Origin: Acidobacteriota bacterium
GTDB lineage: Bacteria > Acidobacteriota > Vicinamibacteria > Vicinamibacterales > CAVVIG01
Length of the DNA stretch: 48,746 nucleotides
Assembly: GCA_003222535.1 (NCBI GenBank)
Contig: QHWJ01000327.1
Span: 1 to 48,746, forward strand
Direction: 5' to 3'
How positions within the stretch are numbered: the first letter of the stretch is position 1; each line of letters opens with the position of its first letter. The translations under genes were made by a program, and so were the position numbers. Below, piece by piece: positions 13,575-48,746 of the stretch. Below the pieces are notes generated by a model. The model was not told the origin of the DNA. It did no database searches and was given only the letters and a program-made list of their open reading frames with translations.

Positions 13575-13576
13575 AA

Positions 13577-13650
13577 ATGCGGAATGCGGATTGCGGAATG
13601 CGGACCTGAATCCGCAATCTCAATCCGCAATCCGCAATCCGCATTCCGCA
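13577..13650. repeat. word hairpin, word GCGGAAT/GCGGATT
   Basis: Three and a half copies of a GCGGAATGCGGATT-type word (13577-13604), a 6-nt loop, then the complementary TCCGCAATCCGCATT word (13611-13650). It starts 2 nt after the lptE stop and ends 8 nt before the holA ATG, so the whole gap is hairpin. Confidence 0.85.
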
Positions 13651-13658
13651 ATACGATC

Positions 13659-26250: not shown

Positions 26251-26329
26251 AAGTCTGAAGTAGGAAGTCTGAAGTCTGAAGTCTGTGGAGCCTCTCAGAC
26301 TTCAGACTTCAGACCAGACTTCAGACTTA
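26251..26329. repeat. word hairpin, word AGTCTGAAG
   Basis: Four copies of AGTCTGAAG (26251-26285), a 9-nt loop, then CTTCAGACT four times (26295-26329). It lies between convergent rsmE and the CarboxypepD-reg gene. The same word forms 33875-33951. Confidence 0.88.
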
Positions 26330-28189: not shown

Positions 28190-28345
28190 CGCTCGGCTGG
28201 AAGCCTTCGCGCTCGGGGTCGGACCTGCCTGACAGACGCGACCCACGTGACCTACGCGACCTACGCGACCTACGCGACCCACGCGACCCACGCGACCCAC
28301 GCGACCCACGCGACCCACGCGACCCACGCGACCCACGCGACCCAT
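28190..28345. repeat. 25-nt element variant followed by a 9-bp tandem array
   Basis: 28190-28215 is a diverged copy of the 25-nt element (one inserted G). 28238-28345 is about twelve tandem 9-bp units, CGACCTACG changing to CGACCCACG. The unit matches the word arrays at 34774-34877 and inside comEC (46650-46690). The block occupies the gap between the CarboxypepD-reg start and the prmA stop. Frames reading RDPRDP through it are not genes. Confidence 0.85.
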
Positions 28346-28376: not shown

Positions 28377-29372
28377 TCATGGTTTTTTCATGGCCAGACC
28401 GACCCAGCCGTCCTCTTCCTGCTCCCAGACCACAGTCGCTGGCGCGAAGGCGCGGCAGACCTCGTCCCGTTCGTCCGCGAGCAGCCCGCTGAGAATCAGG
28501 GTACCGCCCCTGCGGACCTTCGCGAGGAGCGCCCTCGCAGACCGAACAAGCAGCGCGCCGGTGAGATTCGCGGTCGCGACGTCGGCCTGCGCTGAATGAG
28601 TTTGGAGGGCGAGCCTTTCAGGTGAGCCGGTCTCGCTCGGCTGACCAGCCTCCGCCAAGGCTTCGGCGGTCCGCCGTAGCTTGAGCGAAGGCGGAAAGCC
28701 TCGCGCTCCATCTGTCTCGTGGGGGGCGATCCTGCCACGCTGCTCAGGCCAGGCCGTCAAATCGCCGAGGGCGAACGTCACACGGCGGACGGCGGGATTG
28801 ACATCGAGGTTCTCGCGCGCCGACTGAATCGCATCCTTGTCGTTGTCGATCCCGCTCGCGCGCCTCGCGCCCAGTCGCTCCGCCGCGATTGCGAGCACGC
28901 CGGAACCCGTGCCGACATCCAGTACCACCTGATCCGTCAGGTCGATCGCCTGCAACGCGGCCAGACACAAGCGGGTAGTTGCGTGGTGCCCAGTCCCGAA
29001 TCCCATGGACGGGGCTATGACGATAAGAATGGCTGATGGCTCACGGCTGATGGCTGATGGCTCGCGGATGGCTGACGGCTGAAGCCTGAGGGCTGCCCAG
29101 GGAGTCGCGACGATGATGCGGCCGATGGTAATCGGCTCGAGACCTTCCTGCGAGCGGCGGGCCCAGTCTTCGTCAGGGACGTCGAGGGCGGTGACGTCGA
29201 AGCTCGCGGCAAGTGCGGCGCAGGCCGTGTCACGGTCCTCCGGCGTGGAGAAGAACACGCGAATATCTGACTCGCGCGATTCAATCGCCGTCGGTGAGAA
29301 TCCGTCGACCGCGGCGGCGAGGACGTCGGGATCGGCGACGTGGCCTACGTTGATTGCTGGGTACTGCTTCAA
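28377..29372 (-). CDS. prmA: ribosomal protein L11 methyltransferase with two repeat-encoded insertions
   Basis: A SAM-dependent methyltransferase that trimethylates L11. It has 331 residues. Motif I is VLDVGTGSGVLAIAA (150-164), preceded by MGFGTGHHATTRLCL, and the catalytic NLTGALL block is at about 269-275. Two stretches are absent from normal PrmA: residues about 95-115 (repeats of PSAIREPSAI) and about 210-262. Both are encoded by dispersed repeats and keep the frame. The start TTG (29372) sits at the edge of a word repeat whose GGTGAG may serve as Shine-Dalgarno. It follows dnaJ by 32 bp in hrcA-grpE-dnaJ-prmA. Whether the protein folds with these loops is not known. Confidence 0.92.
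   Translation of the reverse strand: MKQYPAINVGHVADPDVLAAAVDGFSPTAIESRESDIRVFFSTPEDRDTACAALAASFDVTALDVPDEDWARRSQEGLEPITIGRIIVATPWAALRLQPSAIREPSAISREPSAILIVIAPSMGFGTGHHATTRLCLAALQAIDLTDQVVLDVGTGSGVLAIAAERLGARRASGIDNDKDAIQSARENLDVNPAVRRVTFALGDLTAWPEQRGRIAPHETDGARGFPPSLKLRRTAEALAEAGQPSETGSPERLALQTHSAQADVATANLTGALLVRSARALLAKVRRGGTLILSGLLADERDEVCRAFAPATVVWEQEEDGWVGLAMKKP
28587..28745. repeat. composite palindromic element in frame within prmA
   Basis: Contains GTGAGCCGGTC (as in the array at 32203-32436), GACCAGCCTCCGC (as in comEC at 47530), and the hairpin core CGGCGG-T-CCGCCG (28664-28676) with outer CCGCC/GGCGG arms. It encodes about 50 extra residues between the SAM domain and the NLTGALL motif. 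Confidence 0.8.
29030..29095. repeat. GGCTGATGG word array in frame within prmA
   Basis: Six imperfect copies of a GGCTGATGG word, read on the minus strand as a PSAIREPSAI-type repeat just before the conserved GFGTGHH motif. It matches the intergenic copy at 4355-4380. Confidence 0.8.
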
Positions 29373-33874: not shown

Positions 33875-33951
33875 AAGTCTGAAGTAGGAAGTCTGAAGTA
33901 TGAAAGTCACAGCCCCCAGACTTCAGACTTCAGACTTCAGACTTCAGACTT
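33875..33951. repeat. word hairpin, word AGTCTGAAG (second copy)
   Basis: AGTCTGAAG three times (33875-33905), an 11-nt loop, then CTTCAGACT four times (33917-33951). It fills the amidohydrolase-xdhC gap and runs over the xdhC stop codon, encoding its last residues. Confidence 0.88.
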
Positions 33952-34773: not shown

Positions 34774-34877
34774 AGGTCATGTGGGTCACGTGGGTCGGGT
34801 GGGGCAGGTGGGTCGGGTGGAGCAGACCTACCCGACCTACGCGACCTACGCGACCTACTGGGGACCTACGTGACCTA
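34774..34877. repeat. word hairpin, word GTGGGTCG/CGACCTAC
   Basis: GTGGGTCACGTGGGTCGGGT-type words (34774-34820) face CCTACCCGACCTACGCGACC-type words (34826-34877). It fills the gap between the PBP stop and the xdhC promoter. The right arm matches the tandem array at 28238-28345. Confidence 0.8.
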
Positions 34878-37289: not shown

Positions 37290-37400
37290 AGCCCCAGGTC
37301 GACTTCACCCTGACAGGGTCGACCTACATCTTCCTGCGAATAGGGTCGGCCTGCACCTGCCTCCGAGTGTAGGGCGACCCTTTCAGGGTCGCCTGCACGT
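37290..37400. repeat. GGGTCG word repeats with 8-bp hairpin
   Basis: The PBP-bshC gap holds several GGGTCGACC-type words and the hairpin GCGACCCT-TTC-AGGGTCGC (37374-37392). A related hairpin with longer arms lies at 39282-39328. Confidence 0.75.
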
Positions 37401-39120: not shown

Positions 39121-39281
39121 GGGAAGCCTTACTGTCTCAAAGCGTTGCGCGGACTGTCAAGCGCAGGACGCGCTATTCGCTTGATGTGACAGCACTAAGA
39201 CGCACACAAGGGATCCCCGGTTCCAGGTTTCAGCGTCCAGGGCTCAACGTTCATTGTTCAGCCGTTCAGGATCCTTTTCGT

Positions 39282-39328
39282 AGGGCGACCCTTTCAGGGT
39301 CGCCAGGCGAGCCTGAAAGGGTCGCCCT
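39282..39328. repeat. perfect 17-bp inverted repeat
   Basis: AGGGCGACCCTTTCAGG (39282-39298) and its exact complement (39312-39328) with a 13-nt loop, in the 270-bp divergent gap between bshC and the pseudokinase. The rest of the gap has loose TTCAGCGTTCA-type words at about 39220-39270 and nothing else recognisable. Confidence 0.9.
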
Positions 39329-39390
39329 CCATCAGCCATGTCGTTTGCCAGTCGCCCGAATCTGATTCAGACAGGTTCGGTGTTACGATA

Positions 39391-41336: not shown

Positions 41337-41577
41337 CTGGTCCTTGGTGCTTGGTGCCTGGTCCGTCCCTGGTCCTGGGTCCGTCCCTGGTCCTGGGTCC
41401 GTCCCTGGTCCTGGGTCCGTCCCTGGTCCTGGGTCCGTCCTTGGTCCTGGGTCCGTCCTTGGTCCTGGGTCCGCCCTTGGTCCTGGGTCCGCCCTGGGTC
41501 CGAGGACCAGGGACAGGGACGAGTGACCAGGGACTAAGAACGGACTAAGAACCAGGAACAAAGGACCAAGGACTAAA
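41337..41577. repeat. word hairpin, word GGTCCTGGGTCC/GGACCAGGGAC
   Basis: From 3 nt after the pseudokinase stop, about a dozen GTCCTGGGTCCGTCCCTG-type units (41337-41500), then complementary GGACCAGGGACAGGGAC and GGACCAAGGACTAA words (41501-41577), ending at the carA GTG. The final AAGGAC may act as the carA ribosome-binding site. Confidence 0.88.
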
Positions 41578-42714
41578 GTGGAAGCAATCCTGGCGTTGGA
41601 AGACGGCACGTTTTTCCGGGGCGCCGCCGCGGGCGCGGAAGGGGTCGCGGGCGGCGAGGTGGTATTCAACACCGCCATGACCGGCTATCAGGAAGTGCTG
41701 ACCGATCCGTCCTATGCCGGACAGATCGTCACGATGACGTGCCCGGAGATCGGCAACTACGGCGTGTCGGTCGGGGATGTCGAGTCGCGCGCGCCGCAGG
41801 TGGCCGGCTTCATCATCCGCGACGAGTCGCCGATGGCGAGCAACTGGCGCTCGGAGATGACGCTCCGCGACTACCTCGTCGCCAACCATATCGTCGCCAT
41901 CTCCGACATCGATACGCGCGAGCTGACGCGGCGTCTTCGCTCAGGCGGCGTGATGCGCGGCGTGATTGTCACCGGCAGCTCGCTGGACCCGAATGCCCTC
42001 GTCGAGCGCGCACGGGCGATTCCGAAAATGGAAGGCTCGGATCTCGTCAGCGGCGTCACGTCGGAGCGGGTCTTCGACTGGCCGGAGGAGGACCCCGGCG
42101 AATTCGGCGTCGTTCCCGCCCGCCGGTCCGAGCGGCGGATGAAGATTGCCGCCTACGACTTCGGGATGAAGCGGAACATCCTGCGCCGGCTGAGCGCGCA
42201 CGGCTGCGATGTCCGCGTCTACCCGGCGGCGACGCCGGCGTCAGAGCTGCTCGCGACCGGTCCCGACGGCGTGTTCCTGAGCAACGGCCCCGGCGATCCC
42301 GCGCCGTTGAGCTACGCGATCGACAACGCGAAGGCCCTCGTCGCCTCCGACGTGCCGGTGTTCGGGATCTGTCTCGGTCATCAGATTCTGGGCCTCGCGA
42401 TGGGCGGCACCACGTTCAAGCTGAAGTTCGGCCACCGCGGCGCGAATCATCCGGTCAAGCAGCTCACGACCGGCAAGGTCGAGATCACGTCGCAGAATCA
42501 CGGCTTCGCCGTCGATCCGGCGTCGCTGCCCGCCGACGTCGAGGTGACGCACGTGAATCTGTACGACGGAACGGTGGAAGGACTGCGTCACAAGACGCAT
42601 CCGGTGTTCTGCGTGCAGTATCATCCGGAGGCATCGCCCGGGCCACATGACGCGGATTATCTGTTCGATGACTTCTTGCGTCTCATTGAGGGGACTAGGG
42701 GACTAGGGGACTAG
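41578..42714 (+). CDS. carA: carbamoyl-phosphate synthase small subunit
   Basis: Glutaminase subunit supplying ammonia to CarB for pyrimidine and arginine synthesis. It has 378 residues from GTG 41578. The N-terminal CPSase_sm domain ([33 protein letters not shown]) precedes the class I amidotransferase domain, with C265 in GICLGHQ and the H349/E351 pair in [12 protein letters not shown]. The last residues (EGTRGLGD) and TAG stop are encoded by the GGGGACT word repeat that fills the gap to carB. The start lies directly after another word array. Paired with carB 107 bp downstream. Confidence 0.97.
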
Positions 42715-42814
42715 GGGACTAGGGACCGGGGACCGGAAACTACGGACTGAGGGGGCTGCCACAACGGCTAGTCTCTGCGGTCCTCAGTCCCCAGGCCCCA
42801 AGTCCCCAGTCCCT
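42690..42814. repeat. word hairpin, word GGGGACT, between carA and carB
   Basis: GGGGACTAGGGGACTAGGGG (continuing to 42733), a loop of about 37 nt, then AGTCCCCAGGCCCCAAGTCC-type words (42771-42814). It begins inside the carA reading frame and ends 8 nt before the carB ATG. Confidence 0.88.
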
Positions 42815-46236: not shown

Positions 46237-48746
46237 ATGCGGAACATCGCGGCTGTTCCAGCGGTCGGCATTCTCGGCGGCGCGGTGTTTGGTCTCCTCG
46301 TTCCCGACCTCCCTCGCGATCTCGCCAGCGCGCTTCTGATTGCGTGCGCCGCGTTTGCGTGGTGGGCGTGGTGGACCGCGCGCAGCCGGCGGCTCGCCGC
46401 AGTCATCGTCGCGGCGTTTTTCGTGGGCGGCGCGCTCCTGGCCGCCGACGCCTGGCAGCGTGCATGGCGGCCGTCGCTGCGTGTCGCCTTCGAGGAGCGG
46501 GCGCGCGAGGCGCGTGCGCAGGCCGCCGCCGAAGGCCGCCGGCTTCCTGAAGACGATGAGGCGTTCGTAGTCGTCGAAGGAGTGCTTCGCGCGGACGCCG
46601 CCGCGACAGCGAGCGGCGTTTCGCTCAGCGTGAACGTCGATGGGCTCGCAGGTCAGGTAGGTCGCGTAGGTCAGATAGGTCAGATAGGTCAGGCGGGGCG
46701 GGAGGGGCAGGACGGGCAGGAAGGGCGGGAGCGGAAGGAGCGCGAAGGCTTCAGCCGAGCGTCGGGCGGCATCCTCGTCACCGTCGTGGGCTCGTTGGCT
46801 GCTGGCCGCGTGCACGAGTGGCGCACCGGGCGACGCGTGCGCCTCGCGGTGCAGCTGCGGCGCCCGTCACGGTACCTCGATCCCGGCGTCCCGGATTACG
46901 AGCGGGCGCTCGCGCGACGGGGAGACGCGCTGGTGGGGACGGTGAAGAGCGGCGAGCTCGTGGACGTGTTGGCGCGCGCCGACTGGTTCGACGAGAGGAT
47001 GGGCGAGGCGCGAGCCTTTGCGCGCCGCGCGATCGACGACGCCGTCGGAGGCTGGAGCCCGCAGTCGGCCGCGATCGTGGCGGCGATCGTCATCGGCGAT
47101 CGCGCCGGGCTCGGCGACGCCGTCCAACGGCGGCTGCAGGAAGCGGGCACGTATCACGTGATCGCGATCTCCGGCGGCAACATCGCGATTCTTGCCGGCC
47201 TGCTGCTGGGCGCATTTCGACTGGCCGGATGGCTGGGGCGGACGGCGATGCTCGCCGCGATCGTCGCGCTTGTCGCGTACGGCGAGCTGGTCGGCGGCGG
47301 CGCGTCAGTCGATCGCGCGACGCTGATGGCGACCGTGTACTTCGGCGCGCGCGCGTTCGATCAGCGAAGCCCGCCGCTCAACGCATTGGCCGTCGTCGCC
47401 GCGGCGCTGGTCGCGGCCGATCCGCTTTCGATCGCCGATCCCGCATTCGTCCTCACGTTCGGCGCCACCCTCGCGATCCTCCTCGTCATGCCGACCGTCG
47501 CCTCCCGCTTCGCTCGTGGTGAGCTTGTCGACCAGCCTCCGCGCTTCGCGCTACGGCGGTCCGCCGTAGCTTTAGCGAAGTTTCCCGTCGGGGCGCTGGC
47601 ATTCTCGTGCGTGACGTTCGCGGGGCTCGGGTTGAACTTTCTCGCGATTCCGCTGATGGGCGTCGCGCAGATTGCCGGCATGGCCGTCGTGCCCGCGGCG
47701 ATCGTGTCGCCGCGCCTCGCGGCGGTTGCGGGGTGGGCGGCGCATCTGGGTGCCGCCGGGCTGGTGCGGTCGGCCGATCTGGTCGGCTTTGCACCGGGGC
47801 TGACCTACCGCGTCGCGCCGCCGTCCTGGATCGCGGTCTCTATCTACTATGGCGCCGCGGCGCTGTGGTGGACGTTGCGGCGCTCCTCGACGGTGTTTGG
47901 GAGACGTGCGTCGGCGCTCCTCGCGGTCGGCGCTGCCCTGTGGATCCTCGTTGATCCGCGTACACTCATCGCCCGGCGCGGCGACGGGATGCTGCACGTC
48001 ACGTTCATCGACGTGGGCCAGGGCGACTCGGCCTTCGTCGTCTTTCCGCGCGGGTCGACGCTGCTCGTCGACGCCGGCGGCCTCGCATCCTCCTCGTCCT
48101 TCGACATCGGCGATCGCGTCGTCGCGCCGGTCGTCCGCGACGCCGGATTCCGCCGGCTCGACTACGTCGCGCTGACGCACGGCGATCCCGATCACATCGG
48201 CGGCGCCGGATCGATCCTGCGTGAGTTCCGGCCGCGGGAGGTGTGGGAAGGCATCCCCGTGCCGCGGTTCGAGCCGCTGACGGCGTTGCGCCTCGCCACC
48301 CAGGCCGCGGGCGCACGCTGGGCGAACGTGCATGCGGGCGATCGCCTCGTCTCGGGTGACGTCGAGATCGTCGCGCGGCACCCGACGGTCGAAGACTGGG
48401 AGCGGCAGAAGGTCCGCAACGACGACTCCATCGTTCTCGAGCTGCGATGGCGCGAGGTCTCCGTGGTTCTCACCGGCGATATCGGGAAGGCCGTCGAACG
48501 GACCGTCGCGTCAGCGATTCCGCCGGCACGGCTGCGCATCATCAAGGTCCCGCATCACGGCAGCCTCACCTCGAGCACGCCGGCGTTCCTGAACGCTCTG
48601 CGGCCGCAGATCGCGGTCGTCAGCGCCGGGCGCAGCAACCATTTCGGACATCCGGTCCCTGAAGTGCTCGATCGCTATCGATCGGTCGGCGCCGAGGTGT
48701 TCCGAACCGACCAGGACGGGGCAGTGATGGTCGAGAGCGACGGGCA
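46237..48746 (+). CDS. comEC: ComEC/Rec2 DNA-uptake channel (3' end outside window)
   Basis: Inner-membrane channel that takes single-stranded DNA into the cytoplasm during natural transformation. 836 codons are visible from ATG 46237; the frame is open at the window edge. N-terminal helices and an OB-like DUF4131 region (to about 225) come first. The competence domain starts at about 285 (GDRAGLGDAVQRRL, AGTYHVIAISGGN) with many membrane helices. A C-terminal MBL domain follows, with FIDVGQGDSAFVVFP, LTHGDPDHIGG and VPHHGSLTSS. Two in-frame repeat insertions are present, at residues about 138-175 and 426-448. Both lack family counterparts as far as I can judge. Confidence 0.93.
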   Translation, partial: MRNIAAVPAVGILGGAVFGLLVPDLPRDLASALLIACAAFAWWAWWTARSRRLAAVIVAAFFVGGALLAADAWQRAWRPSLRVAFEERAREARAQAAAEGRRLPEDDEAFVVVEGVLRADAAATASGVSLSVNVDGLAGQVGRVGQIGQIGQAGREGQDGQEGRERKEREGFSRASGGILVTVVGSLAAGRVHEWRTGRRVRLAVQLRRPSRYLDPGVPDYERALARRGDALVGTVKSGELVDVLARADWFDERMGEARAFARRAIDDAVGGWSPQSAAIVAAIVIGDRAGLGDAVQRRLQEAGTYHVIAISGGNIAILAGLLLGAFRLAGWLGRTAMLAAIVALVAYGELVGGGASVDRATLMATVYFGARAFDQRSPPLNALAVVAAALVAADPLSIADPAFVLTFGATLAILLVMPTVASRFARGELVDQPPRFALRRSAVALAKFPVGALAFSCVTFAGLGLNFLAIPLMGVAQIAGMAVVPAAIVSPRLAAVAGWAAHLGAAGLVRSADLVGFAPGLTYRVAPPSWIAVSIYYGAAALWWTLRRSSTVFGRRASALLAVGAALWILVDPRTLIARRGDGMLHVTFIDVGQGDSAFVVFPRGSTLLVDAGGLASSSSFDIGDRVVAPVVRDAGFRRLDYVALTHGDPDHIGGAGSILREFRPREVWEGIPVPRFEPLTALRLATQAAGARWANVHAGDRLVSGDVEIVARHPTVEDWERQKVRNDDSIVLELRWREVSVVLTGDIGKAVERTVASAIPPARLRIIKVPHHGSLTSSTPAFLNALRPQIAVVSAGRSNHFGHPVPEVLDRYRSVGAEVFRTDQDGAVMVESDG
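46650..46761. repeat. GTAGGTCG words plus exact 25-nt element, in frame in comEC
   Basis: CAGGTAGGTCGCGTAGGTCA-type words (as in 28238-28345 and 34774-34877) run into GGGCAGGACGGGCAGG words and then an exact inverted copy of the 25-nt element (46737-46761). Translated as Gly-rich GQVGRVGQIGQIG and then EGFSRAS. Confidence 0.85.
47513..47580. repeat. palindromic element in frame in comEC
   Basis: GCTCGTGGTGAGCTTGTCGA (as in the 32.2-kb array), GACCAGCCTCCGC (as in prmA), then a perfect 10-bp hairpin GCTACGGCGG-T-CCGCCGTAGC (47550-47570) flanked by CTTCGC/GCGAAG. It encodes about 22 residues between two membrane helices. Confidence 0.85.

Follow-up and report, generated by a model that had tools for sequence, protein, structure and literature searches.

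A dispersed REP-type palindromic element in frame in prmA of an acidobacterium, with candidate Y1 mobilizers in related genomes

Rickettsia is the best-known source of palindromic inserts that sit in frame in conserved proteins. The accessible parts of two sources describe the Rickettsia palindromic elements (RPEs) as palindromes of 105 to 146 bp (or about 150 bp) with inverted ends and long stem-loops, present between genes and, in many copies, in frame within conserved genes unrelated to one another, and describe a Rickettsia guanylate kinase that is made and active with its insert, its substrate affinity being changed (PMC2229807, PMC10969869). The accessible part of one of them also cites a counterpart in Wolbachia and reports in-frame fusions of the bacterial MITEs ERIC and the Yersinia repeats, which are small and non-autonomous (PMC2229807). 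REPs inside open reading frames, often coding for 20 to 30 residues, are reported from several species in the accessible part of a third source (PMC3733652). A literature search, outside of which lay most subscription journals, found no published case of in-frame palindromic inserts in Acidobacteriota. We describe here such inserts in an acidobacterium with a large genome and in its relatives, together with candidate mobilizers in the relatives, and so make it a testable question whether these inserts persist as harmless loops or by doing something.

The window, i.e., the whole stretch of 48,746 nt that was analyzed, corresponds to contig C9 in a metagenome-assembled genome of 8.06 Mb that is 95.5% complete. 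The relatives used for comparison are Acidobacteriota, several labeled as Vicinamibacterales and some labeled as other groups. The gene prmA, for the ribosomal protein L11 methyltransferase (positions 28380 to 29372, − strand), runs for 331 codons from a TTG start without an internal stop, the insert included, and matches the PrmA Pfam family at 156 bits; the frame is therefore kept, as the original prediction had it. A search of the same 95.5%-complete genome found no second prmA. Eight PrmA-family matches were obtained, two of them pieces of prmA itself and six weak (26 to 36 bits), which is the level typical of generic methyltransferases. A stray tblastn match on contig C23 was rejected as a second prmA fragment, its similarity covering the 108-bp element described below alone.

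Linker length was counted from the.DL. stretch to the DVxxANLTG motif in a set of 86 distinct PrmA rows that included the window. These remained from 109 rows after 23 duplicates were removed; the frameshifted row L037 was omitted, the same gene being represented by L152. The linker before DVxxANLTG has 7 residues in 69 of the 86 rows and 9 to 22 in another 16; only the window has 57, a surplus of about 50 residues. In the window, the linker comprises residues 207 to 263 (28584 to 28754, − strand), as delimited by the alignment of the 86 rows and by the gap in the PDB alignment. The original prediction had placed about 50 surplus residues at 28587 to 28745; the surplus stands against the 7 to 22 residues of the other 85 rows, and the position was correct to within a few bases. 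The insert is not phylum-wide, the 57-residue linker occurring in 1 of the 86 rows.

Thirty-six of the roughly 50 surplus residues are accounted for by a dispersed 108-bp element (36 codons) at 28603 to 28710 (+ strand), which has the inverted ends TGGAGGGCGAG and CTCGCGCTCCA and forms one branched hairpin; about 14 residues lie outside it. An example of the peptide encoded by the prmA insert is TAEALAEAGQPSETGSPER. The DNA fold of the element (−37 kcal/mol; z, −5.1) and its RNA fold (z, −4.9) were each equaled in stability by 0 of 200 shuffles. The prmA copy can be read from end to end without a stop in two of its six frames, both on the − strand, and prmA uses one of these. No Rfam family was found in the window at its gathering score, and inspection of the copy alignment by eye noticed no target duplication at the element copies.

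Read on the + strand, the element opens with a REP-type module (28603 to 28628, + strand) that consists of GGAGGGCGAGCCTTTCAGGTGAGCC after one T; the corresponding sequence beside Y1 transposase genes in relatives is GTAGCGCGAGCCTTTCAGGCGAGC. A five-base spacer separates it from a second, inverted REP-type module, CGCTCGGCTGA...AAGCCTCGCGCTCC, the tip of which is occupied by a 51-bp core. In the + reading, this part is made up of the inner arm CGCTCGGCTGA (28634 to 28644, − strand), the core hairpin CCAGCCTCCGCC...GAAGGCGGA (28645 to 28695, + strand), and the outer arm AAGCCTCGCGCTCCA (28696 to 28710, − strand). The ends of the prmA copy are GGAG, not GTAG, on both sides, so this copy lacks the literal GTAG tag.

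Different REP hairpins carry the core in their tips, as shown by paired flanks and by arms that differ while the core stays alike. Flanks that pair across the junction for 8 bases or more were found in 21 of 73 core copies with distinct flanks from the own and related genomes, a set in which a few entries are the near-palindromic core matched in its reverse reading; shuffling of left and right flanks among the copies gave a mean of 3.6 and a maximum of 9 in 500 rounds, and distant flanks gave 3 of 219. The pairing arms are, for example, GGCGACCCT/AGGGTCGCC at locus L206 of the own genome and GTCCGGCT/AGCCGGAC in relatives G023 and G025. The prmA copy has mismatched arms and a junction-pairing score of only 4, and the nested reading for this copy therefore draws on the element family.

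A search with 171 bases around the insert, in which 40 of 235 first-pass candidates were scored, returned at least 45 matches in the own genome, itself included. The non-self matches, at least 44, have 82 to 97% identity and lie at about 40 separate places, and the best eight cover nearly the whole unit from 28603 to about 28710 at 89 to 95% identity. Matches to the element occur in 17 of 27 family genomes, the own included; outside the own genome, most of the matches listed span the core and its surroundings, not the whole element. A census of copies by coding context covered the retrieved parts of the own genome and used hexamer-model coding scores, with flank thresholds set after the scores had been seen. 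It distinguished 39 copies of at least 45 bases, 12 of which, prmA included, are in frame within coding-like sequence. The other 27 have one coding flank (10 copies), genes of opposite strands on either side (5), no coding flank (5), or two coding flanks on the same strand with the frame not kept (7). Pfam results for the frames flanking five of these seven gave clearly different families for three pairs; copy L212 has one flanking frame without a Pfam family, and copy L060 lies at the border between a glutamine amidotransferase frame and an AIR-synthase-like frame. On these results, none of the five looks like a split gene. In-frame copies form the smaller share: within 311 kb chosen independently of the element, 4 of 24 matches to three repeat kinds are in frame, 2 of these belonging to the prmA element.

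Among the proteins that carry the element in frame are ComEC, MurF, a MtaB/MiaB-like radical SAM protein, a nitrate-type ABC ATPase, a lipase maturation factor, and a SelB-like factor. A Pfam domain spans the element in the MtaB-like protein and ComEC, and Pfam domains flank it on both sides in MurF, the lipase maturation factor, and the SelB-like protein. At the element, alignments with solved structures are interrupted in the ABC ATPase (between residues 197 and 252, versus 184 and 189 of the structure), MurF (83 and 119 versus 70 and 81), the MtaB-like protein (218 and 262 versus 244 and 248), and PrmA (194 and 264 versus 167 and 186, the second stretch scoring only 3 bits). A search of the assembly found no second MurF: the copy on C68 is the only MurF-level match in the own genome, and the ten other matches of that search (E values of 2.8e-15 or worse) look like other Mur-type ligases or the repeat. 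The gene of the ABC ATPase (L050, 901 to 1899) carries, before the VTHD motif, the core and a ETGGQASQAGGDRETGGRAFQASRD stretch that looks repeat-coded, with about 50 surplus residues in total. An FtsX-type permease frame of 1,234 residues (L210, 7520 to 11221) holds two element copies in two different element frames.

An AlphaFold2 model of PrmA built with 41 aligned rows has a pLDDT of at least 90 at 232 of 331 residues and below 50 at residues 217 to 247, and PrmA structures make up its top 17 fold matches in the PDB. A structure model had been proposed as a means of seeing whether the insert forms a surface loop; as modeled, the insert is probably an unstructured loop, with the reservation that its low pLDDT comes in part from the lack of aligned rows covering it. 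The residues invariant in the 41 rows are kept in the window PrmA, among them G124 to H130, D152, G154, G156, and N269. Since these family-conserved residues are kept and the loop site separates the SAM-binding half from the NLTGALL stretch, the insert-bearing PrmA is probably still functional.

Further repeats lie in the window. Both GACCAGCCTCCGC and the CGGCGG-T-CCGCCG motif, which the original prediction had named, are present in the prmA insert, and the latter recurs exactly in comEC at 47554 to 47566. It has 8 matches at one mismatch or fewer versus 1.35 expected, the prmA and comEC sites being counted twice (both strands). The comEC site belongs to a copy of the core with 82% identity (47530 to 47580, + strand), in frame inside the Competence domain. 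A proposed tie of the insert to an array at 32.2 kb through GTGAGCCGGTC did not hold up and looks like chance: there are 6 matches at one mismatch or fewer versus 2.4 expected, 4 of the 6 being the array's own units, and ten other element copies with this part (L040 to L047, L053, and L055) have GGCGAGCC in 7 cases and GTGAGCC in none. Two repeat stretches had been overlooked. One is encoded within prmA itself, an ATGGCTG-type tandem (29029 to 29095) in the other PrmA linker, before PSMGFGTGHH, with similar arrays elsewhere in the genome; the second lies in frame in the sequence for the N-terminal portion of ComEC (46650 to 46761, + strand) and combines 9-mer tandem repeats with a REP-type module (46739 to 46761). 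A stand-alone GTAG-REP, GTAGGGCGACCCTTTCAGGGTCGCC, of the same kind as the REP modules of the element, lies at 37368 to 37393 (+ strand), and an inverted pair of GTAG-REPs lies at 39279 to 39331 (+ strand). Directly downstream of prmA, there is a 12-copy tandem array of ACGCGACCC (28236 to 28344), with related arrays at 34825 to 34877 and, inverted, at 46650 to 46692. The window is also rich in 7-to-18-base tandem arrays that differ widely in their units, seen at 13576 to 13652, 26251 to 26328, 33875 to 33951, 41360 to 41497, and 42689 to 42724.

The same loops are filled by repeats in relatives. The MurF loop, which holds the core in the own genome, contains GTAGGGGCCGACCTTGGTCGGCCC and a second palindrome in G016, GTAGCGCGAGCCTTTCAGGCGAGCG in G014 and G026, the GCGCGAAGGTTTTAGCCGAGCG type in G005, and the CTTCGACAGGCTCAGG type in G017. 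A loop was counted as a repeat when its best non-self match in a sample of the same genome (79 to 490 kb) exceeded that of every control window from the same gene region. By this measure, the MurF loop is a repeat of the same genome in 6 of 7 genomes tested, from 5 genera (G016 and G026 share a genus, as do G017 and G025), with at least four repeat kinds; the loop of G025 had no detectable repeat in its genome sample by the best non-self score. Best non-self scores were adopted, after the counts had been seen, because match counts are noisy in GC-rich DNA and the contrast was sometimes absent: with counts, the value of the MurF loop was reached, for instance, by 22 of 39 control windows in G026 and 16 of 38 in G017. 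For the other linker of the own PrmA, the one before PSMGFGTGHH, 8 of 75 control windows score as high by the best non-self score, which is probably due to overlap with the element in the insert linker. Repeat matches of the other PrmA linker exceed all controls in G025, G014, and G005 and do not in G026, where this linker had no detectable repeat in the genome sample by the best non-self score. In several relatives, the other PrmA linker consists of tandem repeats of the GAATCCC, CAACCTC, or GACCC type or of GTAG-REPs, the latter in L118 and L141.

In the own genome, the end motif of the element matches at 197 sites, 108 of them in forward and 89 in reverse orientation, and a reversed control at 2. 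These include stand-alone REPs and the inverted pairs at 28603 to 28710 and 39279 to 39331, and GTAG with the same kind of palindrome is found at window positions 37369 and 39280 and in relatives. Y1 transposase genes (PF01797) are present in 18 of 27 family genomes. In G026, one has GTAGCGCGAGCCTTTCAGGCGAGC on both sides and another is flanked by GTAGCGCGACCCTTTCAGGGTCGC; in G014, a Y1 gene sits between arrays of GTAGCGCGAGCCTTTCAGGCGAGC; and in G025, the core, in a REP tip, adjoins a Y1 gene. The REPs flanking the Y1 genes of G026 and G014 are of types found in MurF of these two genomes and are kin of the prmA element ends and of the window repeats at 37368 and 39279. Most other Y1 loci have none of the five repeats sought or have the CGTCCGGC type. 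The Y1 genes of the relatives are candidate RAYT-like genes, an assignment based on PF01797 and the REP flanks. In the own genome, the only Y1 transposase gene found (L089, 1324 to 2030; C216) is flanked by palindromes of a different type, CGTCCGGCTTCAGCCGGAC, and the link to a mobilizer is therefore made by analogy with the relatives. These CGTCCGGCTTCAGCCGGAC-type palindromes look CGTC-tagged; CGTC repeats are said, in the accessible part of the source, not to be tied to transposase genes (PMC3733652).

Probably, the surplus PrmA residues are the translation of a layered, mobile REP-type palindrome that was spread by a RAYT-like transposase and kept where tolerated. Its layers are two inverted REP-type hairpins (ends TGGAG...) and a separate 51-bp core hairpin in one tip. 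Its spread through the genome would most likely have been in the form of single-stranded hairpins, with a RAYT-like (Y1 HUH) transposase as the mover. Genic copies would be retained only where the frame was open and the product was able to bulge as a loop; the prmA copy, at 108 bp, has 36 codons and two stop-free frames of six and occupies the PrmA loop that joins the SAM-binding half to the NLTGALL stretch. In an alternative origin, the element would be no REP but a MITE derived from a classical DD(E/D) insertion sequence that bears terminal inverted repeats; the clear inverted ends and the 108-bp size agree with this. Such an origin is unlikely, given the 197 end-motif matches versus 2 for the reversed control, with stand-alone REPs among them, the same kind of module at the flanks of Y1 genes in relatives, and the lack of any noticed target duplication.

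Whether the insert does something bears on a different alternative, namely, that it was recruited, as a repeat-encoded loop selected in PrmA that, for example, tunes L11 binding. The intact frame and the presence of repeats in the same PrmA and MurF loops in several genera are in line with recruitment, which we nevertheless regard as very unlikely: the peptides at the same loops are unrelated in different genomes, the same element is copied in unrelated proteins, and the insert is modeled at very low confidence, weak evidence, since the aligned rows have no counterpart of the insert. Recurrent insertion of mobile DNA that the proteins tolerate is a likelier account than function. It is least credible, and highly improbable, that prmA is a decaying pseudogene or the insert an assembly error. 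The genome is a metagenome assembly and repeats are the usual points of assembly failure, but prmA has an open frame of 331 codons with its conserved residues retained and coding signal on both sides of the insert, eleven further in-frame copies occur in the own genome, and other repeats occupy the MurF and PrmA loops of other genomes. The original prediction had paired a pseudogene with a functional second copy elsewhere; the own genome was found to have no second prmA.

Tentatively, the translated mobile palindrome in PrmA may belong to a two-tier mobile system, in which GTAG-REPs moved by Y1 enzymes and a 51-bp core jumping between their tips feed loops into conserved or essential enzymes across the order. 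The GTAG-REPs of such a system would possibly differ between genomes, with some shared, and the 51-bp core would be widespread. If this is true, permissive sites of essential proteins could be read from genomes, since the PrmA and MurF loops would have been entered repeatedly by different repeats. Three aspects are new as far as we have seen: the occurrence in this phylum, a core placed at the tips of REPs, and the filling of one and the same enzyme loop by different repeats.

Among known systems, the MITEs with in-frame fusions (ERIC and the Yersinia repeats) resemble the window element in that it is small and non-autonomous and has terminal inverted repeats, and differ in that no target duplication was noticed by eye for it. 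The RPEs and their Wolbachia counterpart are matched in layout by its 108-bp length, inverted ends, long hairpin, and intergenic plus in-frame copies; unlike the RPEs, the element is from another phylum, is GC-rich, and is built of two REP-type modules and a core shared with other REP tips. The resemblance to RPEs given in the original prediction thus stands for a dispersed palindrome in frame in conserved genes, in the sense that the element works like an RPE, whereas the closer kin are GTAG-REPs with their Y1 transposases. With the GTAG-REP/RAYT systems (REPtrons) it shares short palindromes that occur as singletons and inverted pairs; palindromes of its kind at 37369 and 39280 and in relatives bear a GTAG tag, and related REPs flank Y1 genes in relatives. 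It departs from these systems in the GGAG ends of the prmA copy, the large core in a tip, and the filling of one protein loop by different repeats in different genomes.
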